Assembly (NCBI GenBank): GCA_964036045.1
Contig: OZ038384.1
Coordinates: 37,440,238 to 37,504,237 of the forward strand
Direction: 5' to 3'
DNA: 64,000 nt
From: Eutreptiella sp. 'Long Island Sound 2002'
Taxonomy: Eukaryota; Euglenozoa; Euglenophyceae; Eutreptiales; Eutreptiaceae
This document shows positions 7,050 to 62,555 of this stretch, piece after piece (the stretch's first letter is position 1; the number at the start of each line of letters is the position of its first letter). Made by a program: the position numbers and the translations under genes. The notes under the pieces are model-generated. The model was given only the letters and a program-made list of their open reading frames with translations, was not told where the DNA came from and ran no database searches.

Positions 7050-7359
7050 GTCAGCATGCCTTCCCACTTCACAGCCACTCTCACAACCTGGTATCCACCG
7101 CCAGTCGCCATTTCAAAGTGGGGTGGGGGGGGGCGCCATCAACAGAATTTCCCCTTTTCACTTTTGGCGCCAATGGTCATTTCTGGCCCAAACCCGTCAC
7201 CTTGCGGGTGGCAACTGAAAACCTGGTTTGGGGACCTTTTTTCAGGGCTTTGACTTATTTCCGGCATCCAAAATGGGTGAGCACCATGCAAGTAAATTAA
7301 GCTGTATGAGTATTCTTTTTCCATTGTTGATAATCGTCAGTACATGAGGAACATCTGTT

Positions 7360-25085: not shown

Positions 25086-25999
25086 GGCTCGTTGGGAGGA
25101 AAGACAGGGGAGGGCAGGCCATCGCGGCCTGTGCTTGCGTTTGTACACCCCTTCCCCGTGGGATGCCCCAGGGTTGACACGCCATCTCAGAGGCGACAGG
25201 GCACTGCCTAGCGGTGCAAGCTCCAGCTGACAGCCATAGCCGGGGGGGGGGGGGGGGGGCAATTTTCCCCTGGCCCAGTAAGGCAAACTCCTGGGGTCCA
25301 TTGATGCTTGTCTGGAAAAGTGTGTGTAACAGTGTCATTAAAATTCACCATTCAGCAGATTACCCTTGCCCTGTGGCATCTGCAGCATGCAGCACTTGTG
25401 GCGTGGAAAAAGCATTCTGCTTGTGGAACAACTATAGCCGCACTTCCAAAACTTCCAGAAATTGGCAGGAAAGCCTCCACCTCACGACTCCCGAAGTGAG
25501 ACCCACGAGCACACAATGGGGATAGTGGGGTGCAGGGTACCAACAACACCACCCAAGTTTGACACAGACCAGAGGCTATGATACAACGGCGTGCACCAGC
25601 CATACAGCAAGCAAAGGAGGTATGTCCACCAGGGCCTACTCGAGGGTATTCAACCGACCGCCACCACAGTTCTACCAAGAATGGCGACACCAGGGTGGAG
25701 GCGCCCAGAGGGTGGTCCCGAAGCAGCAGGCTGCTGGTTGAGTAGGCGCATGTCACACACCAAAAAGACAGAATGGGACCAAGACGATCCTCGACAATGT
25801 AGTCCCACTCCAAAACCCCTGCGAGCGTGGGGCAGTCTGTGCTCCTCCGTGGAGAGTGAGGGGAAAGGGTGTCCTATTGCTACCCCCCCCCCCCAACCCC
25901 AAAGCCTTACCCATGCTTGAGCAACCCTGCACTGCACATACCCATAGCCCTTGCTACATACAGCTCTTGCCAAACACCCTCACACCTGCGCAAATTCAG

Positions 26000-26395
26000 G
26001 TTGAACAGCTGCATGCCACAGCCAACACCATTAGTGACGCAGTTGTTGCATTCCTTGTTGTTGCGACTCTCATCAACTACAAAAGCGCCGTGTCCAAGTA
26101 TTTCAAGGGTGTCTCGAACGGCTTCCTCACCCTCAGCAATACTTCGCAGGCTTTCACCCTTCTGCTCGTTTCTGACACGCTTGTGGGTTTTCATTCTGCA
26201 GATGGCTGGGATGCAGTACTGAAGGCGCTGGGAAGCCACTGGGGGGCAGAGGCAGAATCCCTGGAGAGCCCGATTAGTATTTTTGTGGCAACAGTGCCTG
26301 TGGGGCTTGACGTGGCTTTCCGATTCTGGGTGTACAAAGAACTCCGGGCATTGTCCCCCAGCACTCAGGTCATCCTGGACGAGATCGACGGGTGA
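26000..26395 (+). CDS. CemA/PcxA-like (DLDG1-type) plastid envelope protein, exon 2
   Basis: This final exon supplies 131 residues and a TGA stop. It carries the diagnostic C-terminal CemA domain. A membrane helix (DAVVAFLVVATLIN) is followed by SNTSQAFTLLLVSDTLVGFHSADGW (AF-x3-LL-x-D and GFHS-x-GW are family hallmarks). Then come LESPISIFVATVPVGLDVAFRF (P-V-x-LD) and WVYKELRALSPSTQVI (the YL-x-R-x-SPS block), ending EIDG. Spacing matches plant DLDG1, cyanobacterial PcxA and plastid CemA. Because it is nuclear with introns, it is closer in role to DLDG1 than to plastid-encoded CemA. The start is set by the acceptor CAAATTCAG|GTTGAA. Confidence 0.88.
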   Translation, partial: VEQLHATANTISDAVVAFLVVATLINYKSAVSKYFKGVSNGFLTLSNTSQAFTLLLVSDTLVGFHSADGWDAVLKALGSHWGAEAESLESPISIFVATVPVGLDVAFRFWVYKELRALSPSTQVILDEIDG

Positions 26396-29300: not shown

Positions 29301-30330
29301 AAGAGGGCTTAGCACTTTGGATATTTGGCCAAAGGCTTGCACAAAACCAACACAAACATGCCACAAGGTGACGTCTCACTGAAGGTGTGGATTGGTAAGC
29401 CAACGAAGATGTGATCATTTGGTGGTATACCATGGAAATTTACAAGAATATAAGTATGTGTCAAGGAAGGAGGGTTTTTCAATAAGACCTTCCATGTCAC
29501 CATTTTTTGCTCAGGCGTGGATGCATTGTCAATGATTTCTTCTTTTAGGGTTTCTATGGGACTCACGCTTTTGTGAGGGGACAAGTGCCTTTGTCAAACA
29601 GCAAGGGCACCTCAGCCAAATAGGTGCCAAAGTGTGGATGGCTTGGTGTGGAGGAGCAATGTGTGCTGTCATCACCAAGGGCACTTTTGTCCAATAGCGT
29701 CATCTCCACCATGGTTGCCTTTGTAGCAATCGCACAATCAACAGGCCGGGCACATCCCCCTTGGTTAGCAGGGGTGTGCTTGTGAAGAGAGCCTTCTTCA
29801 CCATGGGAACCTTCGTTAGCAATGGCACCTTCATCAGTAGAGGCGCGTTTGTGAAGCCTAGGATGTAAGGTTAGTGTGTTGGGCACACATAGGGCATGTT
29901 TTTAGGCCGAAAGGCCCCCAACCACACCTATCATGTTTTCCACAAGACGACAGAGGTTGCGTAGCCATTTCTCCGAGATTTCCCCAAGATGGCGGGGGCT
30001 ATGCAACCATTTCAGTTTGTCCTGATATGGCATGGGTTTTGTAGCCCTTTTAGGTTTCCTACTTTTATGGAATTGAGGGCATGCATGGTTTATACTATGA
30101 CAAGGTCGTGTATTGATTTTGCCCTGTGGTTTCAGGGAAGTTTGTTGATGTCGTAGTATGGGATGGGTATGGGCCATCTTGCACATGAGGTGGTTTCTCC
30201 AATTGTGAGGTCGGGGGCCATCATGTGGTCTACAAGGTCTGGTGCATGTCATTTTCCATTTTATTGGAAGAAAGAATGGCACTTTGTTGGCCCAACAACA
30301 ATCATATAAGCATGTACCCCCCCCCCCCTT
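26396..30330. other. No confident gene; weak exon candidates
   Basis: Candidates only. About 27264-27480 has an acceptor-like TTTTCAG before an ATG and reads MAIPKGNHKMMEFSERSGG. About 27870-28037 reads VDWNGRPAFFSWEPAL. About 28220-28426 encodes a hydrophobic helix (CVLIGAFFAYLLGVLFLLRK). They could be upstream exons of the membrane protein at 37161, but no chain of matching splice phases can be shown. 28.7-30.2 kb holds only low-information frames. Confidence 0.3.
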
Positions 30331-33300
30331 GTCCAAGCATGGGCAAAATGTTGGCAGCCATTCATGTGTTCTTGCGGGAGGGGGAAGCACCGGACTCGTG
30401 GACACAGTCCCTATTAAAGTGTCTGCCTAAGTTTTCCGGGGCGGAGAAAACCAAGGACATGCGTCCGCTGGCCTTGCAAAACGTGCTGATGAAGTGGGTG
30501 ACAACTACTATTATGGTCCAGCTCGCGGACGTTTTTCCGCAGATTATTCCGAGGGAACAGAAAGGGTTTGTCCCGGGACGACACATGATTGATCATTTGA
30601 TGTTTGCTCGCTCGGAGTGGGAGGCACACCCAGACCAAATTATGGTAGCCATCGATTTTCAGAAGGCCTACGACTCGGTAACGTTTCCCATGTTGAAAGT
30701 ATCACTGCTGTACGTGGGCCTGCCGGAGGCATATGTAAGTGTGCTGATGTCAGTGATGTCGGGGCCAATAATGTTTTGTGTAGGGAAGGGGTTTGTGCCG
30801 GGTGAAGTGCTGAGGCCGCAGTCAGGCATTCGTCAAGGGGACCCCTTGTCCCCGCTGCTTTTTGATGTGGTCACAATCTTTCTCATTTATGATTTTAAAC
30901 GGTTGCATGTGACCGTCCGGATTCTGATGTACGCAGACGATATTCTGCTTTGTATCCCGGGTCGGTTGGAGTCACAGGTGTCGGACCTGCGTGCCTTGAT
31001 CTACTGTCTGCAGGTTTTTGGGTATTTCTCGGGATTGCGGGTTAACTTTGAAAAAACGTATGCAGTAGTGAAAATTTCAGATCCGGACGTGCCACAGCCC
31101 AAGGCAATGGGGGGCATAACAGTGAAGCCGTACGTGAAGTATTTAGGAGCGTTGGTGGGCAACCTCACAGTGGCGGCCTGTTATGCGCCGGTACTCGCCA
31201 AAATGCTGTCGCGCGCGCGCACTGTGGCGTCACTGTCCCTGGGCATGGCAGAGCGGGCATACCTCTTCGCCTCCTGGGTGGCACCGGTGGTATACCTCAC
31301 AGCACGGGCGTATGCCCCGACAGAGCACGTCATCTCCCAGCTAAATATGATACACCGGGTGGCCCTCGATCTAACCACCTGGCACCTGACCATGCCTATA
31401 CTCGCGCTGCCGGTGACGGAGGGGGGGTTTGGGCAGGCGGGGCTGGGGGTGTACGCGCAGTGGGTGCACAGCCAGGCATTCGTGCAGGTGGTGGTGCGAC
31501 CGGCGTCCATCGAGAAGGTGCATGCGGACCCATTTCACAGGTGGGCGAGTGGGAAAGGTCTGGTGCTGGACCCTCTATTCCTCCCATACCTACAGCTGGC
31601 TCCCATTCCACTGTCCAAGCCGACCTTTCTGCAGGGGAGCCTCAATTGTTACTCGGTGGTGCGGAGAGGGGGGGGGGTGACGGCGCCACCCCCCTTGCAT
31701 GATCTGCCTAACCTGCCGATATGGCACTCGGTTTTCTTTCGGAATTCCCACTGGCTTACATATGTATCCCCCGCGCTACTGAAGAGCGGGGTGCTGCGGT
31801 GGGTGGACCTGATCGAGCGTAGGTCCATACCACAGCAGTTACATAGCAAGCTGGCGCCCACATGGCGGTCCGTCTATACCGAGTCGGCGCGAGCGGTAGT
31901 GGCCATGTATCGAGCGACCTATGAGCCGCCACAGGCTCCGCCTCTAGAGCAGTGGGGAGTGCAGTGGACCAAACAGCGCATGCTGCTTTTTTTGCAACAG
32001 TGCACGCGCCCCAAGGCGCGACAGCCACCAGACGTGTGGCGCGTTTACAACAAACTACATCTCCCAAAATGGGACTTGGATTTCATAAAGCGGGTGCTCT
32101 GGCGCAAGCTGCCAGTAGGAGTGCGACAAGAACGACTGGGGGGGAATTTGTGCCCGATGGACGGGAGGTTGGAAGACCATCGGCATGTGCTGAAGAACTG
32201 CTATTTCTCGGGATTCATGTTTGATACGGTACGCAAGGCCTTTGGCCTGGTACAGCGGGAGGGGGGGGCACTGGAACCGAGTCGCCTCCTGCTGGACGAG
32301 CCTCTGTTGTCCCTCCAAAGCACGCAAGGCCTGGTGCTATGGGCAGGCTTGCGGGCACAGTGGCGGTTGCGCTGTGAGGTTAAATATCAGCGGCAACAGG
32401 TGTCCCTGCATGACTTTGTGGCGCTGTGGGTGGCGGGGCTGGAGAGTTGGCGCAGTGAGCGTAACATGTCATGCAGTAGATCGGATCTGCAGCACCTCAT
32501 CGCACAGTTGCAGGCGTGGGGGGAGTCCCGGACGATGTTTTGGAAGGCGCCTCAGGCACCCACAACAGCCCACACGCCATCCACGCAGCTCGATCCGCTT
32601 CAAAAGAAGGAGGCAAAGTGGGGGGGGTACAAGGCGACACTGCTGAAGGAGCTGGGGGACATGCAGGCACAAGGGTGGGAGGTGGTATATACCGATGGGT
32701 CAGCAAAGCGGGTAAGGGGATGGATGCAGGCAGGGTATGGGGTGTGGTTTGGGGAGGGCTCATCCCGCAACTGTCATGCCTGTGTCCCGGCACACGAGCG
32801 CCAGAGCATCAGTCGGGGGGAGTTGAGAGGAGTCCTGCGAGCGCTCCAGGACCGGCGACCAGGGGAACGCATGGTAGTGGTGTTGGACTCCGAGTACGTA
32901 TATAAAGGGGTAGTGGAGTGGTCGCCCAAGTGGCGCCGACATGCCTGGCGCTGCTCAACAGGGGAGGTGGGGCATCGGGACCTGTGGGAAGCAATCCTGT
33001 GGCTGCGGGAGTCCGCGGGTGGGGACGTACGACTGCGATGGGTACCCTCACATTTGGCGGTGCCGGGGAACGAGGCGGCAGATGCGCTCGCGGAGAGGGG
33101 GAGAGAACTACACCCAAACAATCTGTTGCCGCTATCCAAGCGGCGCAGGGTCGCGGAGTGGGACGAGCTGGGGTTGGAACCGATGGTAGAAACCGAGCCA
33201 CTATCCGATCCGGACACAGGGGAGGATTCGGGGGCGGGGACGTCGGAAGACGAAGAGGTGTTGTCCGTGTCATCAGCAGAGCTGTCCGGGGGCGGGTTCT

Positions 33301-33434
33301 CCACTGATGTCAGTGATCGGGCACGGGAGAGGGCGCAGGAGTTTGGCAACATGGGGGTGTGGGACACAAATTACAGTACGGATGTCAGTGACAGCCGGAA
33401 GCGTAAGGGCAGGAGGGTAATCAAGACTTCCTGA
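30225..33434 (+). CDS. LINE B reverse transcriptase-RNase H protein
   Basis: The frame is uninterrupted for 1069 codons. The first 40 or so codons are upstream DNA and not part of the protein. RT motifs appear in order: LPKFSGAEKTKDMRPLALQN, MVAIDFQKAYDSV (catalytic Asp), SGIRQGDPLSPLLFD, and LMYADDILL (catalytic Asp pair, about 30926). A C-H-H-C-like element (LCPMDGRLEDHRHVLKNC) follows. RNase H has VVYTDGSAK, SRGELRGVL, VVLDSEYV and WVPSHLAVPGNEAADALAE, i.e. all catalytic positions. The tail is acidic and Ser-rich. The intact frame, even across a 10-G run near 31671, suggests a young insertion. Confidence 0.92.
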   Translation: MVYKVWCMSFSILLEERMALCWPNNNHISMYPPPPCPSMGKMLAAIHVFLREGEAPDSWTQSLLKCLPKFSGAEKTKDMRPLALQNVLMKWVTTTIMVQLADVFPQIIPREQKGFVPGRHMIDHLMFARSEWEAHPDQIMVAIDFQKAYDSVTFPMLKVSLLYVGLPEAYVSVLMSVMSGPIMFCVGKGFVPGEVLRPQSGIRQGDPLSPLLFDVVTIFLIYDFKRLHVTVRILMYADDILLCIPGRLESQVSDLRALIYCLQVFGYFSGLRVNFEKTYAVVKISDPDVPQPKAMGGITVKPYVKYLGALVGNLTVAACYAPVLAKMLSRARTVASLSLGMAERAYLFASWVAPVVYLTARAYAPTEHVISQLNMIHRVALDLTTWHLTMPILALPVTEGGFGQAGLGVYAQWVHSQAFVQVVVRPASIEKVHADPFHRWASGKGLVLDPLFLPYLQLAPIPLSKPTFLQGSLNCYSVVRRGGGVTAPPPLHDLPNLPIWHSVFFRNSHWLTYVSPALLKSGVLRWVDLIERRSIPQQLHSKLAPTWRSVYTESARAVVAMYRATYEPPQAPPLEQWGVQWTKQRMLLFLQQCTRPKARQPPDVWRVYNKLHLPKWDLDFIKRVLWRKLPVGVRQERLGGNLCPMDGRLEDHRHVLKNCYFSGFMFDTVRKAFGLVQREGGALEPSRLLLDEPLLSLQSTQGLVLWAGLRAQWRLRCEVKYQRQQVSLHDFVALWVAGLESWRSERNMSCSRSDLQHLIAQLQAWGESRTMFWKAPQAPTTAHTPSTQLDPLQKKEAKWGGYKATLLKELGDMQAQGWEVVYTDGSAKRVRGWMQAGYGVWFGEGSSRNCHACVPAHERQSISRGELRGVLRALQDRRPGERMVVVLDSEYVYKGVVEWSPKWRRHAWRCSTGEVGHRDLWEAILWLRESAGGDVRLRWVPSHLAVPGNEAADALAERGRELHPNNLLPLSKRRRVAEWDELGLEPMVETEPLSDPDTGEDSGAGTSEDEEVLSVSSAELSGGGFSTDVSDRARERAQEFGNMGVWDTNYSTDVSDSRKRKGRRVIKTS

Positions 33435-45999: not shown

Positions 46000-46963
46000 C
46001 CCATGCACAACCCACGACACGTCAAAGTACGCAAACAACCATGTCATGCACTGCGCTTGCACATTGGCCTCCCTGTGGATGGCCGACAATTGACGACCCG
46101 ACACCTCGTCCGGACCCTCCACCCGACAGCCCCCCCCTCCCCCCCCCGGTTGTTGTGCTCGTTGTGACCATGTTTCAGAAAGCGGTTAATGCTTTCCGAA
46201 ACGTCACCGGAGAACATAGCCAGGCCAAACGGCTTAATGTTCAACAACATGGTATCTACATCCTGCTCAAGGCTTAGAGATACCATGATGCTGTTCCAGC
46301 AGTGCAGTGTCGCCGGAAATCGCGCGCAACAACAGCACAATTCAATGGGTTAGGGCCCTGATATGTACAATAGAGGGCCTGCAGCAGATCCCACATGTTC
46401 GCGATGGCCTTATACTTGGCCGTGCTTGGCCTAATGCCGAGGCACTTAGCAATATTCCGCCACGCGTCAAAAAAATTGGCCATCTCCTCCCCATCCGGGG
46501 ATGCTGACCCATAAACGCTCCAACCTGCACGCCTCTCCGACAGGAGAGTTTGCAGGTCTCGACGGAGCGCAGGGGTGACCAACCTAGCCTCCCGATCGAC
46601 AAACTCCCCCAACAAGCGGCCCATGGCCATTGTCAACTGCAAAATGCACAAGACGACCCAGGCACGTGGCAATTTCAAAATGGGCTGCGTACTGCAGCCG
46701 GCAGCTTGCAAGGATGGCGTCCCAAGGAGGAAGGCCGTGTAGTTGGCCTCATCACCCTCCAAGGTCCGGGGGTTAGCACTACCCTCCCAAGTCTTCGTTG
46801 GGGCATTCCATATGCCCTCATTAAACATGGAGCCCACTTGGGGGCATCTGGACACCCCGATCACCCGTCGCGTCCACGGTTGATCCCCCCCGAGGATCAC
46901 CTTTGCCTCCTCCTTGGAGGCCCCCCATTGGACCAGCCCCGTGTCGATGATATCTTGAATCAC
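46000..46963 (-). pseudogene. Element A transposase-like gene, exon 2
   Basis: Begins after acceptor GTGTTCAG| with VIQDIIDTGLVQWG. Conserved with B: CPQVGSMFNEGIW, FLLGTPSLQAAGC, WVVLCILQLTMAMGRLL and SASPDGEEMANFFDAW. A frame change near 46300 then leads to DVDTMLLNIKPFGLAMFSGD and ESINRFLKHGHNEHNNRGG. It continues to QCMTWLFAYFDVSW. The N/D-x-x-ES-x-NRFLK block resembles the Glu motif region of several DDE transposases. The frame change shows decay. Confidence 0.7.
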
Positions 46964-47091
46964 CTGAACACGAGACATGGGGGGTGGTTAATTTCGTTCT
47001 AGTCTAGTCCAATCTAGCGTCTAGCGAGCGGTGTTTGAGGCCGACTAGATCAAAACTAGAACGAGTGAAAGGCACTAGGTGAGAGGAGTAC

Positions 47092-47183
47092 CTCCCAATT
47101 GCTCTTCCACAACGTCCCAAGGGTCTCCATGGCCTTGTCATCGCAATTGGCCATGCTCAACACCCAAAGGCCCGCTGGGGAGC
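47092..47183 (-). pseudogene. Element A transposase-like gene, 3' part of exon 1
   Basis: Reads SPAGLWVLSMANCDDKAMET, then LGTLWKSNWE, ending at donor GAG|GTACTCC. Aligns with B's RIPACVWVIGLAICGDKAMA and LATLWEDNIK. Interrupted on its 5' side by element C at 47184. The 128-bp intron to exon 2 (46964-47091) carries GTTCTAG motifs and has the same position and phase (0) as B's. Confidence 0.8.
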
Positions 47184-47207
47184 TTAGGCGTCACAAGTTG
47201 CCCACCC
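47184..47207 (+). repeat. Element C left TIR
   Basis: TTAGGCGTCACAAGTT followed by GCCCACCC. Differs from the right TIR only at positions 17 and 18. Confidence 0.9.
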
Positions 47208-47387
47208 TCTAGGACCCTGTATACGCGCGATGTGACAATATTCTACATTTCTACTTTGAGTATGCTATTTGACATATGTGACCAAAGTTGTTGGCAGAGC
47301 TGTGTGACACCTGTTGAAATACGTGTTGATGTGTTAGCCTTGTGTATCCCCGTCTTCTAGTGTGTTGTATTTGACGTTTTTCTGAAG

Positions 47388-47688
47388 CTGGCCGAAAATG
47401 AGGCCAGCTTTTGGGTAACATCGCCAACAACTATGTGTATATGCAGTTTTTGACCCTTCTGGCCGAAATTTCGGCCAGCTTTTTGGTTTCCTAGTGAATA
47501 GGCATAGTTATTTTTATTCTTCTTAGGGCTGGCCGAAATTTCGGCCAGCTTTTTGGTCTGTTCACTATTCAAGCACTTTTTTTCTCGTTTTTGGGCGGTG
47601 TGGCTGAAATTTCGGCCAGTTTTTCCTATTTTTGAACATTTAAGCAATTATTTCCCCTTCGAACACACCTCGTTGAAATTTCGGCCAG
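47388..47688. repeat. Palindrome cluster, element C left subterminal
   Basis: Five copies of CTGGCCGAAATTTCGGCCAG or variants: 47388-47407 (variant), 47459-47478 (perfect), 47529-47548 (perfect), 47600-47619 and 47669-47688 (left-arm variants). The spacing is a regular 70-71 bp, about seven helical turns. Confidence 0.95.
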
Positions 47689-47759
47689 CTTGCAATTGTC
47701 GTTGTTCATGACTATTACACCATACACTCCTACATAGCTGTTTTCTTGTCTCAGCATTA

Positions 47760-49853
47760 ATGTCTTCTGCTATTAATGTCAATGTTGTACATGCTGCAGT
47801 TACTGGTGCTTTTGCTACTACAGCCAAAGGGCTGTTGCGAAATGCATTACGTGGTGGGACTCTGTAAAAGCTTTTGCAATTCTGCCTCTTGTTGCGGAAG
47901 AATCGTAGGAGCCGGCACTCCCTGACACAGTTGAAGGCCCCCGCCACTGAGAAGAAGCCCCCACGATGGTACATGACATTTTTGTCACAGTTCCATGCCC
48001 TACACTGCCTGCTGCGTCGTATGGCCCTCCCATACTCTAACTGTGGGTCTGGTTACAACTGGGGTATTATCTCTTGACGCCAACGCCGTAAGGTAGGAGT
48101 CCTTGGTCAGTGTAACACTAAGCAGGAGTCCATTCACCATCGTGCTGGACCAGCAGCACACAATTTGTGGAACACCATGCACCGTAGGCAAGTTTGTATA
48201 TGGTTTGATAACCTGAGGCGTTACAGGTCGGGAGCTGATCCCCATTCACCCGACTTAGCCCTAAACTGTACAGCTGTTGCTGTTTTGCACACTACTGCCC
48301 TACCTGCATACTAGGGTCTGCCGGAGCTGGCCGAGATTGAGGCCAGGGTACCAAAGGTTGTAAATGACATCTTTCGCTCACACAGAGCATTCTTTGATCG
48401 TATTGATGTTGCCAACCAAGGTATTCAGAGAGTTTGGGTTCGTGCCCCTTTGGATATTGCCAGAAAAAATGTTCGTTCCCTCAACTGGAGACCCTTTTTC
48501 CTGTCTGAGCTCCGCTCCGGCACACACAAAGAGCTTTTGCAACTCGTGGTTGATTTGTCATGTGTGGAACACCGCACCAGACACTGTGTTCCGCTGCTTG
48601 TGGACATGAAAATACACTTTGCCCTACTTAAGCTGTGTTATGGTGCTGCCTATGTTCCGTGGAATGTACCACAATTACTGTTGGGTTTTCCTTTGGTGTA
48701 CGGAGTATGGCATAGCTATAAGTATTGCATTGAATTGATGTACAGGGCGGCCCTGCCGTTCATTGAGTTTTTGGAGCAGGGGAACAGCCTTCAGGTTGGG
48801 TCTATCCTCCCTCGCAAGGTCAAGGTCATCCATATGGAGAAGACGTTGCTTGGACTCATGCTAGCCACATCGTCCAATAGAGGCAGACTAGATGAGCGCG
48901 TCACTACCCTGCTCAATAGCCAGCGGGACTTGACACCCATTCAGCGCAAGGGTTTGCGTATGTTATTAGCCCTTAAGGCTTTGCTGTACACATACTGTCT
49001 AGCTGCTTTCAGCATTGGGACTTTGGTTCGTGAGTGCAACTGGGAGGGCCGGGGGGCAGGTTCCGGGATTGTAGCTAAGCAGGCACTTGAGATGTCCCTA
49101 TTGCTCATGCTGAACATCCTAAAGCCCGAGGAGCAGTTAGCCACCGAGTATGTGAAAACCACTGCTGTTGCTCTTTTGTTTTGGAGTCAGTGGCATTCCG
49201 CCTCCCTGGGGTGTATCCACTCTGAGGAGCTGGGTGAGGCACTTCTGAGTCGGTTTTCAGCCCACTGTCGCCGCGACATTGCCTGTACCAGTGTCCAACA
49301 GTCGTCCGATTTATTTCTGACACTTCCCCCTGTCCAACCGGGAGAGAAAGTTTTGCGTGGTGTGCTGACTGAGAGATCCGTGGCAATGTTCTCTGCCAAT
49401 CTTAAACAATTCATCTTGACAGCCCATACACAGAGCCTGCCCATTTGTGTTCCCGTTCCGGACTATAAAGTTGAGGTGAGAAGACAGGATGCAGTTGATG
49501 ATCTGACATTCCCCGGTACCATGTCTAGGACACGAATCACCACACACCGTTTAAAAGTGGTTCTGTTGCATGCAATGCAAAATCTAGTTGCGCGTACCAG
49601 GGTTCCTGAGGGTGTTGAGGATTTGTTACAGACAAATGCACCTGCCCGCACTGCTGCCCCGCAAGGGGTGTTGCGTACTGCACATGCCTCTATCCGCGCT
49701 GCCAACCGTGCACCGCCTGCTGCTCATGCTGCTGCTCCTGGTGGAATTGCCTTGCCCCCAAAGCCACCCCCGGAGCCCCGAGCCAGAGGCCCCCCAATAC
49801 CCCCCCCCCAGCCCCCCCCCCCCCCCCGCCCAGTACCCCCCCCGCGCCCCTGA
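47760..49853 (+). pseudogene. Element C gene 1: decayed transposase-like protein
   Basis: A single reading frame runs from an ATG at 47760 (after acceptor-like TTGTCTCAG) to 49853 with three in-frame stops: TAA 47865, TGA 48075, TAG 48312. Upstream parts include HALHCLLRRMALPYSNCGSG and VCIWFDNLRRYRSGADPH (possible first Asp). The intact part has VPLLVDMKIHFALLKLCYGA (possible second Asp) and LVYGVWHSYKYCIELMYRAA, then a helical domain and a Pro-rich tail. The D-N, VD-x2-I and GVWH-x-YK blocks recall DUF6589-type transposon proteins of fungi and animals; that is a recollection, not a search. An imperfect palindrome (48327-48346) lies inside the frame. Confidence 0.5.
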
Positions 49854-50072
49854 TGATTCCTTTGCCGTCGACTCTTGTGATAGTGACCGGGATATTGATT
49901 GTGATGCAGACAGCGTTGCCTCCTTTGAAGCCCTAGATGAGGCGGAACACATCGGTGTGGATACCCAGGACTGGGACTAATTCCTGTTTGCAGCTGTGTT
50001 TGTCACTGTGGTATGGGTTCTGCCACGGATTGCCAGTGATTTTGGTGTGTCTATTTGCTGTTTCATGTTTTT

Positions 50073-50163
50073 CTGGCCGAAATTTCGGCCAGACTTGTTG
50101 TTTTGTCATATGGCTACCCCCAGAACACAAATGACATAAGGTTCTGGCCGAAATTTCGGCCAG
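50073..50163. repeat. Palindrome pair between the element C genes
   Basis: Perfect 20-bp palindromes at 50073-50092 and 50144-50163, again 71 bp apart, with a degenerate half (CGCCGAAATTT) at about 50214. They lie between the two genes, upstream of the ATG at 50350. Confidence 0.95.
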
Positions 50164-50349
50164 CCTCTCAGAATGGTGTTTGTACACAGTGGTTTGACAT
50201 GCAGAGCAGTGCTCGCCGAAATTTTGGGGGGTTATCCGATTTTCCTCTCAGGTAGTCCGTTTTGGTCCTTTTTTGGTTTATCTGTGCTTGTTATTTGCTA
50301 TCTTGGAACTCTCCCCTTCATGAAATGTTGCCCTGTAGCCCTTTATTTT

Positions 50350-52936
50350 ATGACTGAGCCTGGAGAGGTATCACAGGACATGGCTGTTTCGCCAGATGGT
50401 GAGCCTGCAGCAGACAATGGGCAATCTCAAGTGCAATCCCAGTCTCAAGAGGACCAGGCGGCACAGACGGACTTCAAAAGAAGCCTAAGGCCGCACCAAA
50501 GAAAAATTCAACATCCTCCATCAAGTTATCCGACTGGGTTACGTCAACGACGAAAATAAAGGTTCGGTGGGATCAGATTATTATCGACCACGACCGAAAA
50601 TTTGGGCAGGTCTGTAGGATTTCGGATGATCGCGTGCAACGCCGCTACGACGATCTGAAGGCAGCCCCGCTTGTGGATTACATCCAGGATCTTCTTTTTT
50701 ATAAAGTCACTCGTATGTTTGTTGTGGTATTCTTCTCGATAGTACCGTTTTCGCGTCTGAATTTTCGACCGTGCTGTTTCGAATATTCCTGTTGCACAGC
50801 CACTCGCTGGGTTCTGTTGGGGGGTCAGCATGTTTACACTGCTGCCCAAAAACACAAGACGGAATTTGAGATGAAAAATATGGAGACTCGGGATTGGACC
50901 CTGGTATTTGGTGGTTATGAAGTCAAACAGGACTGCCCCCTACGGACTAGGCGCCGGCTTGCAGGCTTACATCAAATCCAGACCACTGCTGGCTCAGCAT
51001 CCACCGCATCGGAGCGAATGTCCCTACTCCTGGATAGGCTTGAGGACGAGGATGCCAATGAGTACACCGTGTACCATCACATTACTATTATGCTTGAAGA
51101 GTGTGGTGTTACTGCCGAGGAAGGCACTGTGGTGTGTTTCGTTTATTAATTCGGTTTTGTCGATCAACCTGGCCGAAATTTCGGCTAGCTTCTGTGTTCC
51201 ACATGTTCTCCTGTGCAGAGTGCTGTTGCCAAACGGTGGGATGGCGTTGGGCGGTTGGTGAAATTTGTGGGTCTTGCTGCAGTAGACGCCATGGCAGCCA
51301 TGGAGAAGCGTGGATTGCATCCCGCACTGGGTACGTTCAAGGAAGTGGAAGGCATCACGCCTGACCGACTTCGCGACATCGTAGGTTACATGGATGGCAC
51401 AAAAAGTGCCCTACCTGGTCTCAAAAAAATTATAAAAGATGTTAAAAAGGCCCGGATGTGGTCCTGTTACATTCTTCATCCCGAGGCGGTTACCAATGGG
51501 CTTGTGAACAACACCAGAGGTATGTTTTGGTCAAACAGGGGTTTGTATTCGAATAAATCGACCGACCTGGCCGAAATTTCGGCCAGCTTTTGTGTCGTTC
51601 AATTAATGCACAATCGGAGCCCACCCTGTGACACCACCTGTCTGCAGCTACACTTGGTACCATCGAGATGGCCAAAAGGCAGTGCGCTATTGCATCACAC
51701 CTCAAGGTAGCCTATGGCAGCTGGACCTGGACTGAAGAAAACCCCTGGCCACCGTGGTCAGCAGTAATTAAGGCTCCTCTTTGGAAGGAACCCAAATATG
51801 AGGGGTTGCGCGGATTGTTGCAGAAGCCTGTTGCTAAGCCTGTTTGTGAAAAATCTGATACTGGTCTGGTCAGTATCCAGTGTGCTAGGGAGTCCCTCGT
51901 TCAGTCAAGCACAGGCAAACTCATTGCAGAGTCAGGCCGTGTGGAACTGATGGCAATGCGTTGTGGAGTCCCTGTTCCCAATATCATTAGTTCACTGCCC
52001 TTTGCTGCTTGTGTCATTGAGGTTCCCCGCCTCTATACAGCTGGTTTGCATAAAATGGTTGCGCAGCTGCTTTTGTCCGGTGTGCCTGTGTTCATTGCGG
52101 GTGAGTCTGCTGATGTGAAAGCCACTGTTGCTGCTTTGAAGGCCATTGTGGCTGAGGATATGTATCAGTGTGATGTTGCAATTTACAATTTGTCAACCAA
52201 GACCCCGCTGTACACTTCTACGTCCCATCTGGTTTCCATTTGTTCTGCCACTGCCTTTGATAAAAGGCTGCCCCGTTACGTGGCTTTTACTGAAGGACCC
52301 ATGTTGTCTGTGATGCCTGTTGAGATATTCTCATTTCTTTTGAGCCTGGTTCCGGTCCCAGAACGGGCAGGCAACTGGTTTTTGCTGGGCACCCTGTCTG
52401 TGTATTTTGCAAGCATGATGTCTACCAGGTTTTCCAAGGACTATAATGTTGTGTGTGCCCTTTTGGGTGAGGAGACTGTTGTGCCTGATGAGTTTGTTCA
52501 GTCCATGAGAGCAGCTATCACCAACGCCGACACGTGCCCCCCCAAGTCATGGGAGGATGTGTACCACGACTTGGGGGCAGGTTTTCCTGTGGATTGTTCT
52601 GGGGTTAGGTATGTAGATGAGGATCCTGAGGAGCAAGATGGGGAGGCAGAGTCGCAATCAGAGACACACACTCCAAAGAAGAAACCCAAAACTGCCCCTG
52701 CCCCCTCACCTAGTGGCATGCAGTGCGCTCAGGCCACCCCAGCTTCCTCCTCAGGCACTGTGGCCCCTACTGGCAGAGGTATGCATGCTTTTGTGAATCA
52801 TTTTTCACCATCCCAGGGTGGAAACACACAGTCACAGAACTCTGCCACTGCCAAGCCTCGTGCTGCAACCCATGCCAAGCCTCCTGCTAACACAAGTGGT
52901 AAGAAGCCCCGTGCATCTGGTCTCCGCAAGCGCTAA
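50350..52936 (+). CDS. Element C gene 2: ParB-like N-terminus, weak methylase-like C-terminus (4 exons)
   Basis: Exons: 50350-50712, 50800-51131, 51219-51519, 51648-52936. Donors are GTATGT, GTGTGT and GTATGT; acceptors end CACAG, TGCAG and TGCAG. Exon 1 needs one frame change near 50460, where an acidic start passes into a Lys-rich linker. Exons 1-2 read KIKVRWDQIIIDHDRKFGQV, ISDDRVQRRYDDL, then TRWVLLGGQHVYTAAQKH; the GGQH-x2-x-A block recalls the ParB/sulfiredoxin fold (G-x-HR-x2-A). Exon 4 has alternating strands and helices (DVAIYNLS; GNWFLLGTLSVYFASMM) faintly like N4/N6-type DNA methylases, but no DPPY. The tail is basic. Introns 2 and 3 each contain the 20-bp palindrome. Confidence 0.5.
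51132..51218 (+). other. Intron 2 of element C gene 2 with palindrome
   Basis: An 87-bp intron, GTGTGTTTC to CTGTGCAG, containing CTGGCCGAAATTTCGGCTAG (51169-51188, one mismatch). Confidence 0.6.
51520..51647 (+). other. Intron 3 of element C gene 2 with palindrome
   Basis: A 128-bp intron, GTATGTTTTGG to TGTCTGCAG, containing a perfect palindrome at 51567-51586. Phases on both sides agree (phase 1). Confidence 0.7.
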
Positions 52937-52975
52937 TGCCAGTCCTACTGCTTCTATTGCCTGTCAGTATGAAGT

Positions 52976-53299
52976 CTGGCCGAAATTTCGGCCAGCATGC
53001 AGTCCTCAGCCTCTTCGGCCTCTTATTATTGTGTTTCCCCATAGGCACTGCAAAAGTCAGATTCGATTCGTCATTTGGCAAGTATTTGCTTGTAATTGAG
53101 TCTATTATGTTGCACACCCTGTTCAAATGTTGCTGCTCCTATGTTCCTTGCTCATGTCTACTGTCATAGGTACCCATTTCAGTGATCATATTCGGAGTTT
53201 CGATGGACCTGGCCCAAATTTCGGCCAGCTTAGGCCTGTCTGCCAAATAGGACCATGTGTTGGGACATTTTTCGAAGAGCTGGCCGAAATATCGGCCAG
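52976..53299. repeat. Palindrome cluster, element C right subterminal
   Basis: A perfect copy at 52976-52995 and single-mismatch copies at 53209-53228 and 53280-53299; the last two are 71 bp apart. With the left cluster these flank the genes. Confidence 0.95.
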
Positions 53300-53699
53300 G
53301 TTGGTCAAAAAAGGAAATACAAGTGCATGCTTTGGGATAGTTTTCTGTGTGCTTCAATGAAAGGTATGTTTGGGGTTCCTTTATCTGTGTTGTATAGGGG
53401 GATTCTGTGATCACCCTGGAACAAAGGGAGAGAGAAAATAGGCAGCCCCCCCCCCCCCCCCCGCAGTGGAATGCAGTGGTCTAAATGTAAAACAACACTA
53501 TATATTGGTGATTGAATATCTTTATTTTCAAAATCTGTGTGTTTCCCGAAATGCAAATAAAGGCATATATTTGAAATACACACCTTGTTTTTGCATGTTG
53601 CCACCAGGGGGGTTTGGATACCCAAAAAATAACACCCCTTTTCACATACTTTTCCCCTCACTACAACATGGACTTACGTGGGCCATAGCGCCAGGTGGG

Positions 53700-53723
53700 G
53701 GGTGGTTAACTTGTGACGCCTAA
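53700..53723 (-). repeat. Element C right TIR
   Basis: On the minus strand TTAGGCGTCACAAGTT followed by AACCACCC. It is the inverted partner of 47184-47207. Confidence 0.9.
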
Positions 53724-54405
53724 GGTGAGCGGGCCAAGCGCTCGAAGTTGGCCAAGGAGATGGTGAGTTGGGTCCAATTGCCCCTGGCCACGGGGTAGGC
53801 ATCTCCCCGGACGATGAACGTCAACGGGAAGGTGCGGTTGATTGACCGCACCAAGCCCGGCCGGGAGAGAATGTATGTGACCCATGAGGCGAAGGGCCAT
53901 GAGATCCTGGTGGCCTTGGGAAACACCGTGGCAACGGGGTTATCCAATTGCACCGGGGCGACCAACTCCTTCCAACGGGCTTGGAAAGCCCGCTCGGTAC
54001 AAATTGCACGGGAGTAGTGGCCACTACGGACGGTGCGGTGCTACTCCAACTTACGGAGCTCGTAGAGCTCCGAGGGGTCCTCCACGAGGACTTGGGGGCC
54101 ATCATGTTGAGCACTAGTTCACACATGGCGGTGGGGGGAAGTAGGGAGGCGGTGTATGCCTCAACGGCGGCCTTGCATGCCTCACCCGTGGCTTGGGTAG
54201 AAGTGGCGGAGTTCACATGTTGGACGGGGTTGTTGCATTGCCGCCGTGCTAGGGGGCATGATAGCGCCCACGTGGCCAAGTAATGGCCCACCCGCTCATC
54301 CTTGAGGTTTGAGGCCCCACTCAACTCCCGTAGTGCCTTAGACAAGAGGGAATTATCCTTCCCGGGTGAGGAGGGAGCAAGGGGGGTAGTGGCGGGGCGT
54401 TTCAT
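53724..54405 (-). pseudogene. Element A transposase-like gene, 5' part of exon 1
   Basis: Starts MKRPATTPLAPSSPGKDN at 54405 and includes VGHYLATWALSCPLARRQ, LPPTAMCELVLNMMAPKSSW, then a frameshift and an in-frame stop before ERAFQARWKELVAP and ISWPFASWVTYILSRPGL. It ends TFIVRGDAYPVARGNWTQLT, SLANFERLARSP exactly at element C. The RGDxYP-x6-WxQL block is shared with B and may hold a catalytic Asp (inference). Confidence 0.8.
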
Positions 54406-54586
54406 TGCAAAGAAATGTGCAATATCTAAGCCCCAAAGAAGGAAGCATGGAACAATGCACTACGGACAATAGCAAGCAAGCATGCACGCACGCACGCATG
54501 GAATAATGAAGAAATAGGGATATGTTGGTAGACATTATATCGTTCTAGTATTGATCTCATCTAGGCTAGAACGTTCTAGCTAGAGC

Positions 54587-57586: not shown

Positions 57587-60151
57587 CTAAAAGTCCTGCG
57601 TGGTCGGGGGCCCGGCGGGCGCCCCCGAACTCTTGTCACCCGCCCCACTATCCCCCCCATCTCCCTCACCGACCATCACCCCTTCACCCACCACCCCTTC
57701 ACCCTCCACCCCTTCACCCACCACCCCTTCACCCTCCACCCCTTCACCCTCCACCCCTTCTCCCACCACCCCTTCACCCTCCACCCCTTTGACCTCCATC
57801 CTTTCCCCCTCCACCCCTTCGACCTCTTCCCCGACGCCCCCATCCCGGTTAGCCCCAGTAGCACCCAAACTTGCCCCCGGTCCATCCCCTTCGTCTCCCC
57901 CGTCCCCGTCCCCGTCGTTGCTCTCGTCCCCCCCCTCGTCCGCGTCCGCGTCGTCCTCCTTGTCCTCCTCCTCGGCCGCCATCATCTTGGCGAGGAACTT
58001 CTTCGCCTGCGTCTTGGTTTTCCAAACCGACGCTCTCGGGATGGCGAAGAGTTCGGGGGTTTTGGGGAAGGCGATCCACGTCTCCCCAACCCCGGGGGGC
58101 CACCCGCGGCAAGGGCCTCTTTGCCCTGCTCGATCCCCCACTGCCCATTGTCCCGAAAAACTACATACACTTGCTCCCCCGCTTTGTATTTGCACCCCCC
58201 CCCCCTCTTGCCTTTGGCTTGGCCTTGGGTTGGGGTTGGGGGGGCTGGGCCTTGGGTTGGGGGGGCGCGGCTCTCTTGGGAGCCTTGCGAGGGGGTTTGG
58301 TGGGCTCCTTGGTCGGGGGGCGGGTGGGCTCCTCGAACGCCGAGGAGTCGGTGGTGGACCCCGAGGAGGAGTCCGTTGAGGAGTCGCTGGACGACTCCTC
58401 ACTGGAGGACTCCCCCGGGAGCCTCTTCCTTTTTTGGGGGGCTGGTTTGGGGGCGCTCTTGGATTCCCGCTTGGGGGGGCGTTGGGGTTTGGGTTTGGGT
58501 TTGGGTGCTGTTTGGGGGGCTGCGTGGGGGTTCCGGGGTTGGGGTTGCACGGGCGGTGCACACGCGGGTGGGGCGGGGGCTTCTGCGGCCACTTGTTGGC
58601 AGTGCGGCGGCGCTGGGGACATGTCGCCAATGCTGCCCCACCCCTCGATGCGCGTCGCGAGAACGCTGCCGCGGGCTGCCACGTAGTCCATCATGGCCGT
58701 GAGGAACTCGAGCACGGCGACGGGCTGCAAGTGCAACTGCTAAAGCAACGTACCCAAATAGATGGGCCGGGGATCGCTTCCCCAGAACCCCCAGAACCAC
58801 GGCGTGCTCCCGAACCTCCCCCCAGTTACTCATTGAGCTCCCAGCCGAGGGCGCGGGCAACTAGAGGCGATGCGCTTGGAGAGGCGCAACTTGCGCGGCC
58901 CCTTGTGGGGCAGGCCGTGGCGGCTCCGATGGCCGGTGAGCGGGGGTTGCCCACGGAGGATGTTTGGGAGCGCCCTGAGGTGGGGGAGGGGCTGGCGAAG
59001 CCAGCGCAGAGCTGCTGCGTGGCTCGGAGCGCGTGGCCCCCTGTGCCCCCAGTGGGGCTGGCGGGGGTGGTGCAGACAGTGCTGCCCCCAGGGCCTCGGT
59101 CTCGGTCATCCCGTCCTGCGGACAAGGATGCCGGAGAGAGGCCAACCCTACCCAGACACCTTGTTCCGGCGACGTTCCAACAACCTGTTCCGGCGACGTT
59201 CTGGCGACGTTCCAGTGGCCGCTGGAACCCCGCCAGAACGTCGCCGGAACAGGTTGTTGGAACGTCGCCGGAACAGTGGAAAATAGGCACAGTTCGGCGC
59301 GCGCACAGGGCGCACTGCGTGCACTACGGCCCCGTGGGGGGGGGGGGGGGACATCCACTACAAAGAATCCTAGCCCCTTTATGGGCATGGGGCACCAACA
59401 ATCACTGGGCGTCCTTGGGTTTTCCCCTTCCCCTGGACAACAAAGATTCCTAGCCCCTTTATGGGCATGGGGCACAAATAATCACTGGGGGTTCTTGGGT
59501 TTTCCCCTTCCCCTGGACAACAAAGATTCCTAGCCCCTTTATGGGGTTTTGGCACAAATAATCACCGGGGGTTCTTGGGTTTTCCCCTTCCCGTGGACAA
59601 CAAAGATTCCTAGCCCCTTTATGGGCATGGGGCACAAATAATCACTGGGGGTTCTTGGGTTTTCCCCTTCCCCTGGACAACAAAGATTCCTAGCCCCTTT
59701 TTGGGCTTGGGGCACAAATAATCACTGGGGGTTCTTGGGTTTTCCCCTTCCCCTCAACAACAAATCATCAAATTCCTAAAGAGCAAAGAGCAAAAGGGAC
59801 ACAGGGGGGAGCGGGGGGAGCAGGGCAGGCAGGGACACACTAACCCAACGCACTGATTTCCACTGCGCGCAAAGCGCGCCAAAGCATACACCCAAACCCA
59901 AACCCAAACGTCGGCCCAAACCAAAACCCGCACCCGAACCCACACCCAACCCCTAGCCCAAACCCAAGCCCAAACCCACACCCAAGCCCAAACCCACACC
60001 CAGGCCCAAGCCCAAACCCACACCCAGCCCCAAGCCCAAACCCAAGCCCAAACCCCCACCCAAGCCCGAACCCGCAAACCTGCATATTCTTGGTGGCCTT
60101 CAGAAGCGCCAACATCATTTGCATCATATCTGCGCTGACGGGCGCGGCCAT
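57587..60151 (-). CDS. Element B gene 2: PK-rich, Ser-rich and acidic accessory protein
   Basis: Exon 1 reads MAAPVSADMMQMMLALLKAT and ends KNMQ| at 60080. The next acceptor is TTTGCGCGCAG| at 59863. Further exons include LQLHLQPVAVLEFLTAMMDY, VAARGSVLATRIEGWGS (about 58735), a PKPKPKPQ basic stretch, a Ser/Asp-rich run, AGEQVYVVFRDNGQWGIEQG, and VGETWIAFPKTPELFAIP, SVWKTKTQAKKFLAKM, then an Asp/Glu-rich tail and VEGEG/VVGEG pentapeptide repeats, ending at 57587. One frame change near 58110 and uncertain middle exons (58860-59860, where GTTCCGG motifs and an 80-bp repeat lie). It shares order and the FAIP/FRVP-to-acidic segment with A's gene 2. Function unknown. Confidence 0.45.
57660..57800 (-). 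repeat. 15-bp minisatellite coding VEGEG repeats
   Basis: On the plus strand CACCCCTTCACCCTC units repeat about nine times. On the minus strand they encode VEGEG or VVGEG at the C-terminus of gene 2. Confidence 0.9.
59361..59760. repeat. 80-bp tandem repeat, 5 copies, inside element B
   Basis: Units starting CAAAGATTCCTAGCCCC occur at 59361, 59441, 59521, 59601 and 59681, exactly 80 bp apart, with few substitutions (the first unit reads AAAGAATCC). Absent from element A. Confidence 0.95.
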
Positions 60152-61217
60152 GGATAGGAGCAGAAGAAAGAAGAGAGCTGAGGAACGGGGGTGGTGCAGA
60201 GGGGGTGGTCTCTAGTGCAGCCCTGGGAACACAAGGCACATGTCGAACAGCATCATGTTGGTGGAGATGAATGTGAAAGTACAAGAAAACCCATTGCAAC
60301 ACTTGCCGCAGGGCGTCGGCGTCCGAATCAATGGATGCCTGCGAGCGACCGCAGCTGGCGGTCCCAGTAGCCGTTTGCCGGCCACCGCCCCGGGCACTGT
60401 GTTCGTTGAAAGCCTGCTTCAGGAAGCGGTTAAGGCTTTCGACAATGTCATTGGAGAACATTGGCAATCCGAACGGCCAAATGTCATCCAATACGCGATC
60501 CGCATCCTCCTCCAGGAACAGGAGGTAATGGGACGCGGACCTAGGAGCACAATGCTCCCGGAAGGCAGCTGTCGCTGCCCGGCATTGGGGACGCGTACCC
60601 GGCTGATAGGTGTGGTACAGGTCCTTCAAAAGCTTCGCCATCCCCATCACAGCCCTATAGAGGGGCTCCTCCGGCCCAACTGACAGCAACAATGCAACAT
60701 CGGGCCAAGCCGCAAACAGGCGCGACGTCTCCTCACCATCCGGGGAACAATCCTTGCCTAGGCGGCACCCAGTGCGATGCTCATGCAATACCGCCTGAAT
60801 CGCCGCACGGGACACCTCATCGCCCCGGGCTAGCCGCTTTGCCGCCAACCGCTCAATGTTGGTCATTTGCAACCGGCCCATCGCCATGCAACAGTGCAGA
60901 ATGCACATGACAACGCGGCAGCGGGCAATGACCACCACTGGTTCCACGGAACAACGTGCGGCCTTCAGCGATGGTGTTCCCAACAAGAAGGACGTCCGCT
61001 GTGCGTGGTCCGACTCGGTGGTCCGGACCACGTCTATGCCCCGCCAAGCAGCGGCGTCGGAGTCCCAAATCCCCTCGTTGTATAGTGACCCCACTTGTGG
61101 GGCCGGTGTGATCCCGATGGGGCGCACCCAGGGGGAATCACCACCGAGCCAGGCATCGGCCGCTTCCTCATGGGAATTGAAGACCACCCGGTGGGTGTCC
61201 ACGACCTCCTGGATGGC
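59754..61217 (-). CDS. Element B transposase-like protein, exon 2
   Basis: Acceptor TTTTTTCTTAG| then AIQEVVDTHRVVFNSHEEAA. Conserved blocks are APQVGSLYNEGIWD, SFLLGTPSLKAARCSVEP, VVMCILHCCMAMGRLQ, CSPDGEETSRLFAAW, and EDADRVLDDIWPFGLPMF followed by SNDIVESLNRFLKQAFNEHS. The last matches the N-x2-ES-x-N pattern near the catalytic Glu in MULE-like DDE enzymes (inference). After QVLQWVFLYFHIHLHQ similarity to A ends. The frame then runs through a hexamer-repeat intron of gene 2, so the true C-terminus is probably near 60180. Confidence 0.7.
   Translation of the reverse strand, partial: AIQEVVDTHRVVFNSHEEAADAWLGGDSPWVRPIGITPAPQVGSLYNEGIWDSDAAAWRGIDVVRTTESDHAQRTSFLLGTPSLKAARCSVEPVVVIARCRVVMCILHCCMAMGRLQMTNIERLAAKRLARGDEVSRAAIQAVLHEHRTGCRLGKDCSPDGEETSRLFAAWPDVALLLSVGPEEPLYRAVMGMAKLLKDLYHTYQPGTRPQCRAATAAFREHCAPRSASHYLLFLEEDADRVLDDIWPFGLPMFSNDIVESLNRFLKQAFNEHSARGGGRQTATGTASCGRSQASIDSDADALRQVLQWVFLYFHIHLHQHDAVRHVPCVPRAALETTPSAPPPFLSSLLSSAPIHGRARQRRYDANDVGASEGHQEYAGLRVRAWVGVWAWVWAWGWVWVWAWAWVWVWAWVWVWAWVWARGWVWVRVRVLVWADVWVWVWVYALARFARSGNQCVGLVCPCLPCSPRSPLCPFCSLLFRNLMICC
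59863..60079 (-). repeat. Intron made of GGGCTTGGGTTTGGG-type hexamers
   Basis: Between donor ATGCAG|GTTTGCGG and acceptor TTTGCGCGCAG|, nearly every base belongs to degenerate TTGGGY/GTGGGY hexamers. The same hexamer encodes PK repeats in exons of gene 2 in both A and B (for example 45515-45545, 58480-58505). Confidence 0.75.
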
Positions 61218-61355
61218 CTAAGAAAAAAACATCAATTTTGTTGGAACCAGATTGTTCCGGTGGCGGTTCCAACGAAACACTTGAACGTCGCCGGAACGTC
61301 GCCGGAACAAGTTATCGGAACGTCGCCGGAACAACACGGTGTGTGCGCGGCACAC
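61218..61355 (-). other. Transposase intron of element B with GTTCCGG motifs
   Basis: A 138-bp phase-0 intron at the same site as A's 46964-47091. Contains CGTTCCGATAACTTGTTCCG, GTTCCGGCGACGTTCCGG and related words. A's intron has GTTCTAG words instead. Confidence 0.8.
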
Positions 61356-62081
61356 CTTAATATTGTCTTCCCAAAGGGTTGCTAGGGTCGCCATCGCTTT
61401 GTCCCCGCAGATTGCGAGGCCGATGACCCACACGCAAGCGGGAATTCGTCCCCAAAGGCCCATGTTGGCGAAGGACACAGACAATTGGGACCACTCCCCG
61501 CCTGCGCAGGGGTAGCCATCCCCCCTGACAATGAAAGTCAGGGGGAACGACCAATCGATCATGCGGCACAACGGGGGTTGGCTAGCAATGTAGCGCAGCC
61601 ATGATGCCCACGGCCAACTGATGCCCGTGGCCTTGGGATCCGAAGTGCTCACCGCGGGGGCCAGCTCCAAGGGGGCCAGTAGATCTTGCCAGCGCTGCTG
61701 GAAAGCCCTCTCAGGGCAAATCGGACGGGCGAATGGAAGGCCCGTGGTCGCGGTGTACTTCAGCCCGCGGAGGGTGTACACTTCCGAGAGCGTGCGCCAA
61801 GCGGATTTGGGCGCACGCAGGCCGAGGATGAGCTCGCAACACTCATCGGGGGGGAGCACCTCGGAGGCGTACTTGGCGATTGCCCCCTGCTGTATCTCTC
61901 GTACACATCTTGGTTGGGCCAAGCGCACGGCCACCGCAAATTGGCGGCGGGCGTGTGGAGAGGAGATGGCCCATTCCGCTATGAACTCCCCAACAAGATC
62001 CCCGTCCCGGAGGCTAACAGCACTAGCCAAATGGACGAGGTGGGTGGTTAGTTGCGCAACGCGGGTTTGCGATCTAGGCAT
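61356..62081 (-). CDS. Element B transposase-like protein, exon 1
   Basis: Starts MPRSQTRVAQLTTHLVHLAS at 62081 and encodes 242 codons. Conserved with A: GEFIAEWAISSPHARRQ, LPPDECCELILGLRAPKSAW, ICPERAFQQRWQDLLAPLEL, ISWPWASWLRYIASQPPL. Near the end, LTFIVRGDGYPCAGGEWSQL, then VIGLAICGDKAMATLATLW, are the most conserved blocks between the two copies; the Asp residues in them are candidates for the active site. Donor AAG|GTGTGCC, phase 0. It looks like a transposase because it is the main gene between TIRs, but I do not recognise the superfamily. Confidence 0.7.
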
Positions 62082-62555
62082 GATGAAGCTACAACAATGA
62101 ACTACGAAGCGAAATTCGGCAATGCATACCTCTAGGGGAAGATGCCCGTAGACACACCGAGTATTCAGGCAAGGAACAAATACCAAAATGGGACCCTAGG
62201 CATGGCCACAATGCACAAATCAAACGGGAGAATGGGGACGCCAACGTTGAAAAGTCATACAACGCTGCGTCTGAACTACAAGAAACAGCAGGCTTGCAAA
62301 TGGATACGAAAAGCTCGAAATGTGTACACCTAGTGGAAGGTGGCACCAACGGCTCACAAGATGTCAACATGGCCCCGATGGGAAAGACAAGCCTTGGACG
62401 CGTTATACATGCAAGAAAGAGACAAAAAACATCATTTACGAACTTGGAAACTCATGGTGATGGATCTGGTTATCTGGCCTGCGACACTTGTTCCCGTGGT
62501 GTTCCCAACGAGATTGTTCCGGCGGGAATTGTTCCCATTGGGAATATTCCAGTCG

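Follow-up and report, generated by a model that had tools for sequence, protein, structure and literature searches.

Results

A two-gene transposon within a minus-strand gene

The window analysed here (the whole stretch of DNA, 64 kb in length) contains a 6.54-kb element with two genes and terminal inverted repeats, referred to below as element C. An earlier, sequence-only reading had given its span as 47184-53723; the inverted repeats extend this slightly, to 47183-53724, or to 47183-53723 if the target duplication is taken to be 6 bp. The left terminal inverted repeat (47183-47207, plus strand; 25 bp, with a CTTAGGCGTCACAAGTT core) is complementary at 23 of 25 positions to the right repeat at 53700-53724 (minus strand), and its 17-base core has just one other match in the window, at 48213 with 4 mismatches. 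Flanking the repeats are the two copies of a target duplication: GGGAG at 47178-47182 (or, as 6 bp, GGGGAG, taking in the element’s last G) and GTGAG at 53725-53729 (or GGTGAG), the right-hand copy having one mismatch to the left.

Element C interrupts a minus-strand gene, parts of which are found at 46274-46987 and 53821-54459. A paralogue of that gene lies in the same window (59754-62195, minus strand), 43-61% identical to it in the matched parts, and it was against this paralogue, by comparison at the protein level, that the target site was defined; both flanks match adjoining parts of the paralogue protein, with the junction codons retained on both sides. The family of the interrupted gene has no Pfam match, and the paralogue carries long low-complexity stretches. 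The element is a genuine insertion, as shown by the 25-bp inverted repeats, the 5-6 bp target duplication and an interrupted gene that has a paralogue in the window; terminal inverted repeats and a target site duplication are likewise the marks of a class II DNA transposon. No second copy of the element’s DNA was found in the window by BLAST.

The surroundings hold several other features. Two CemA-like parts stand 18.5 kb apart, one at 6039-7250 (E 0.0013, below Pfam’s cut-off) and the other at 25742-26392 (E 2.8e-30), and correspond to consecutive portions of the Pfam profile. This suggests a nuclear cemA gene (encoding a plastid envelope protein) with very long, transposon-filled introns at 6039-26395, and hence a host that is an alga or a plant; tRNA and Rfam scans gave no match informative on the host. 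Tandem units of 171 bp, more than 96% alike between most neighbours, occupy 9665-11585 and are open on the minus strand as a 741-aa frame with a repeated peptide, whilst the long open frame at 30189-33434 encodes reverse transcriptase and RNase H domains and marks a retrotransposon.

The two genes of element C

Gene 1 (47760-49980, plus strand, the end being approximate) encodes a putative transposase. The copy in the window is decayed: three stops interrupt its frame, which also shifts at a run of C; P0001, a database protein from another copy, nevertheless aligns in a single frame over 677 residues at 94% identity (47760-49790). Beyond the run of C at 49790-49850 the database copies P0001 and P0003 continue in different frames, and this tract therefore varies between copies. 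The gene 1 family comprises at least 48 matches, which range from close copies through a subfamily at about 43-55% identity to the distant P0048 at 30%; P0048 as a query itself finds P0085, P0086 and P0087. In this comparison, made at the level of proteins, the gene 1 cluster has 267 member sequences, with matches on many contigs. Using P0001 numbering, D150 is present in 11 of the 11 sequences with a residue there, and D282, E360, H318 and H479 are invariant in 13 of 13 gene 1 sequences; on the strength of these invariant positions, a DDE-type transposase is plausible. P0001 has no Pfam match up to an E-value of 10, and its relatives have nearly none; the predicted structure has a mean pLDDT of 47. 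When the gene 1 profile was run against the viral collection it returned 36 pattern matches and no relatives, and P0048 likewise found no relative there.

Gene 2 (50350-52936, plus strand) is predicted to have four exons, the first with what looks like a frame change; its start (approximate) and its splice sites are predictions. The three introns, all GT-AG, lie at 50713-50799, 51132-51218 and 51520-51647 (plus strand). The last exon leads to the 422-aa family of P0049, with 40 matches, of which the two largest clusters hold 175 and 134 member sequences on many contigs. Scanned in pieces, gene 2 gave no significant match in Pfam or NCBIfam, DUF1985 and DUF287 included, and no recognisable DNA-binding domain was seen in Pfam, NCBIfam or the predicted structure. 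That structure is poor (mean pLDDT 42.8), with no match in the PDB at an E-value under 0.28, and the gene 2 region has no match in the phage collection. Each of the two proteins has a family of many copies, and neither family is significantly matched in Pfam or NCBIfam. Four database proteins (P0019, P0023, P0038 and P0047) join a gene 1 piece to a gene 2 piece in one frame, as would be expected of internal deletion derivatives.

A 20-bp palindrome confined to element C within the window

Scanning the 64-kb window with the palindrome CTGGCCGAAATTTCGGCCAG at up to 3 mismatches gave 13 matches (six exact, three with one mismatch, one with two and three with three), every one of them between 47388 and 53299 and hence inside the element; dinucleotide shuffles gave an expectation of 0.01 per window, with a maximum of 1 in 100 shuffles. 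The six exact copies have perfect two-fold symmetry. When the scan was extended to 7 mismatches, a degenerate fourteenth copy appeared at 50212-50231, with 5 mismatches and 68 bp after the copy at 50144. The element has no match with 4 mismatches, that single match with 5 and one with 6 (the shuffled background for 6-mismatch matches inside the element averaging 0.25 over 20 shuffles), and across the remaining 57 kb no match is better than 6 mismatches. There is thus a clear gap between copies and background, and the copy number is 13-14; this bears out the sequence-only reading, which had counted six exact and about eight altered copies and had placed them all inside the element, the latter point holding within the window. 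The exact 20-mer occurs in none of the contigs of the viral collection and, among 257 billion bases, in 11 prokaryote stretches, each with a single site and most of them from Marinobacter and Onishia/Halomonas; a text search of the papers available did not find its 16-bp core.

The left array consists of five copies, all upstream of gene 1: 47388-47407 (3 mismatches), 47459-47478 and 47529-47548 (both exact), 47600-47619 (2 mismatches) and 47669-47688 (3 mismatches). Three are found between the genes, at 50073-50092 and 50144-50163 (both exact) and at the degenerate 50212-50231; one each in gene 2 introns 2 (51169-51188, 1 mismatch) and 3 (51567-51586, exact); and three downstream of gene 2, at 52976-52995 (exact, 40 bp beyond the stop) and in a right array at 53209-53228 and 53280-53299 (1 mismatch each). 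The remaining copy (48327-48346, 3 mismatches) is palindrome-like and lies within the coding sequence of gene 1, where it encodes the peptide LAEIEA, common among gene 1 relatives; this copy and that at 47388 have an altered half in common (22 nt, 91%). A candidate in intron 1 of gene 2 was rejected: even in the best alignment made by eye it differs at about 8 positions, and matches of that quality arise 5.35 times per element in shuffled sequence; the intron has no significant copy.

Non-coding DNA therefore holds 12 of 13 copies, or 13 of 14 with the degenerate one. About 30% of positions lie outside coding DNA, which gives the latter a binomial probability of about 1.4e-6; this figure uses the predicted gene model and assumes independent sites, an assumption that duplicates do not satisfy. 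The proposed placement in subterminal DNA, gene spacer and introns holds for these 13 and fails for 48327, whilst copies upstream of gene 2 and in two of its introns are found as described. Clusters towards each end do exist, in the form of the left and right arrays, but they begin 205 bp inward on the left and 425 bp inward on the right rather than at the tips, and the DNA outside them has no copy; five of the 14, placed between genes or in introns, are a long way from either end.

Regular spacing without a common helical face

Intervals within the arrays are 71, 70, 71 and 69 bp on the left, 71 and 68 bp between the genes and 71 bp on the right, so that every interval below 200 bp (7 of 7) falls at 68-71 bp, in line with the 70-71 bp previously noted for several copies. 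Random placement of 14 sites matched this in 0 of 100,000 runs, with at most 4 such intervals, in a simulation whose model does not include duplication. The earlier proposal that the spacing amounts to about seven helical turns, such that bound proteins would face the same side of the DNA, does not survive: at 10.5 bp per turn, 68-71 bp corresponds to 6.48-6.76 turns (a phase of 171-274 degrees), and same-face binding is rejected on that ground.

Spacer lengths are kept at 48-51, whereas most spacer sequence is not, given that 13 of 14 comparisons between clusters have z below 2 (the exception, 47459 against 53209, reaching z 2.5). Within the left array, z is 2.2-3.1 in three of six pairs, and the array perhaps arose long ago by tandem repetition; the middle spacer pair has z 0.9, and the middle and right arrays hold spacer length with little or no common sequence. 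A stretch of 49 nt around the copy in intron 2 (51169) is 82% identical to that around the copy in intron 3 (51567).

The palindrome in other copies of the element

Other copies were compared through the reading frames of database proteins rather than through their DNA. In these frames the palindrome is retained at four equivalent sites, in 8 of 87 proteins, among them the following: at 47669 in P0003 (as GRNFGQ, where the copy in the window is altered), at 50073 in P0002, at 52976 in P0056 and P0079, and at 51567, in intron 3, in P0074, P0083 and P0084. With the palindrome masked, a search recovered six proteins that span a site through their flanks, of which five keep the peptide with no more than one change per six residues; the sixth, P0009, has two changes and is degenerate at 50073. 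In the close copies core residues match at 33 of 36 positions and flanks at 185 of 214 (sums made by hand); with conservation of the core scarcely above that of the flanks, these copies show common descent and not selection. P0084 is the most diverged, matching at 56 of 87 positions in the exon, 13 of 32 in the intron flank and 5 of 6 in the palindrome; it is the only copy to point to constraint on the palindrome, which it suggests as a single case.

Discussion

A proposed role for the palindromes

The sequence-only reading took the palindromes to be a multi-site binding system and not a passive repeat. Confinement to the element within the window, the non-coding position of 13 of 14 copies, the regular spacing and the four positions kept in other copies all speak for this, whilst the same-face argument has to be given up; the layout, in our view, is more readily explained by a multi-site binding system than by a passive repeat, a proposal that is partly supported.

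Synthesising these observations, we propose with moderate confidence that a protein encoded by the element, probably that of gene 2, binds the palindromes as a dimer and controls the element’s own expression or chromatin (see also PMC10398659). Each palindrome would serve as a two-fold symmetric site for a dimer; the binder is most likely the gene 2 product, in that gene 1 looks the more transposase-like of the two, having conserved D150, D282 and E360 or E489 (P0001 numbering) and a high copy number. Such a protein would coat the element’s promoters, gene spacer, introns and 3' region, the regular spacing letting adjacent dimers touch, and the coating would keep these regions expressed or unsilenced, much as VANC21 does on VANDAL21 in Arabidopsis. 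A second role, in drawing the ends together, is possible.

Of the other explanations, the one to which we give most weight, although we think it unlikely, is that the palindromes are cis sites for transposition, at which the transposase or a helper assembles the ends, as TNPA does on the subterminal repeats of En/Spm or the BED domain on those of Hermes. That the left 0.5 kb holds five copies and the right 0.75 kb two to three would suit this, as would the existence of two-protein systems with subterminal arrays (PMC2613891, PMC10368747), but the copy-free outer 205 bp and 425 bp would not, nor would the five of 14 copies between genes or in introns, where end assembly needs none. We regard it as improbable that the sites bind a host factor, for example a stress or cell-cycle regulator, captured as promoter or enhancer sites: copies do lie upstream of both genes, and the core GAAATTTC contains what we take to be the inverted nGAAnnTTCn arrangement of the heat-shock element, yet a host site would be expected elsewhere (the best in the other 57 kb has 6 mismatches), identity over 20 bp exceeds the need of known short host sites, and copies in introns and the 3' region are less expected.

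Improbable, too, is a functionless short module spread within the element by tandem and dispersed duplication. The weak likeness of the left-array spacers and of one left-right pair, together with the alike surroundings of 51169 and 51567, is what such a history would leave; against it, the spacers have mostly diverged where the palindromes and the spacer lengths have not, almost no copy lies in coding DNA, and the palindrome persists in the diverged P0084 (one case). An action as RNA hairpins in element transcripts seems to us very remote, even though every copy could form an 8-bp stem and several lie in introns or probable untranslated regions. The seven altered copies among the 13 retain 7 to 9 of 10 pairs with no compensating changes, which points to a role in DNA and away from an RNA hairpin; the regular DNA spacing, and the copies upstream of gene 1, where transcription would have to be assumed, also speak against RNA.

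Returning to dimer sites for the gene 2 product, a broader and more tentative possibility is that an undescribed algal two-gene transposon lineage has independently evolved a VANC-like self-recognition, in which a dimer would read a 20-bp palindrome about every 70 bp in promoters, spacer and introns, labelling the element as ‘self’ so that it is expressed in the face of host silencing. Were this so, the anti-silencing strategy would have arisen more than once, here through unrelated transposon proteins in an algal lineage, both of which appear to represent families absent from Pfam; the long perfect palindrome and fixed spacing would then make for an unusually easy test system for transposon self-recognition. 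In the literature that we found, sequence-specific anti-silencing by transposons is confined to the Arabidopsis VANDALs, and the matches listed in searches on transposon-encoded palindrome binding, algal anti-silencing and algal DNA transposon superfamilies do not describe this element.

Comparison with known systems

Like KDZ (Kyakuja-Dileera-Zisupton) elements, element C encodes large proteins, and KDZ accessory genes counter silencing (TET/JBP in fungi) (PMC12730594); unlike them, its gene 1 has no Pfam match and its duplication is 5-6 bp, as opposed to 8 bp in Zisupton and Dileera and 7 bp in Kyakuja (PMC12730594). Hermes, a hAT element, offers a parallel in its BED domain, which binds a quasi-palindromic pair cooperatively and for which precise spacing matters (PMC10368747); duplications in hAT elements are 8 bp, and 5 to 7 bp in some lineages (PMC12730594). 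With En/Spm (CACTA) elements it has in common two proteins and a motif repeated near the ends (PMC2613891). Membership of CACTA/EnSpm is nevertheless rejected: the termini are CTTAGG and not CACTA, the duplication is 5-6 bp and not 3 bp, element C has no tnp2-like Pfam match, and its sites also occur in introns and between genes, whereas the En/Spm and Hermes models place them near the ends (PMC2613891, PMC10368747).

VANC21 occupies intronic, intergenic and terminal non-coding regions of VANDAL21, a Mutator-like element, and needs dense motif arrays (PMC5735166). In both systems the motif is confined to its own family (here, within the window) and forms dense non-coding arrays, and an extra gene accompanies that for the transposase (PMC5735166); the VANC-type pattern of arrays in introns, gene spacer and ends describes 13 of the 14 sites in element C. 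The VANC21 motif, YAGTATTAY, differs in being 9 bp, unidirectional, tandem-repeated and non-palindromic, as compared with a 20-bp palindrome at 68-71 bp, and the gene 2 pieces, unlike VANC, have no DUF1985 or DUF287 Pfam match; moreover, binding and demethylation have been demonstrated for VANC21 (PMC5735166), whereas element C is described here from its sequence. Taken as a whole, the layout of element C resembles the anti-silencing targets of Arabidopsis VANC21 more than it does end-binding sites of the En/Spm type (PMC5735166).
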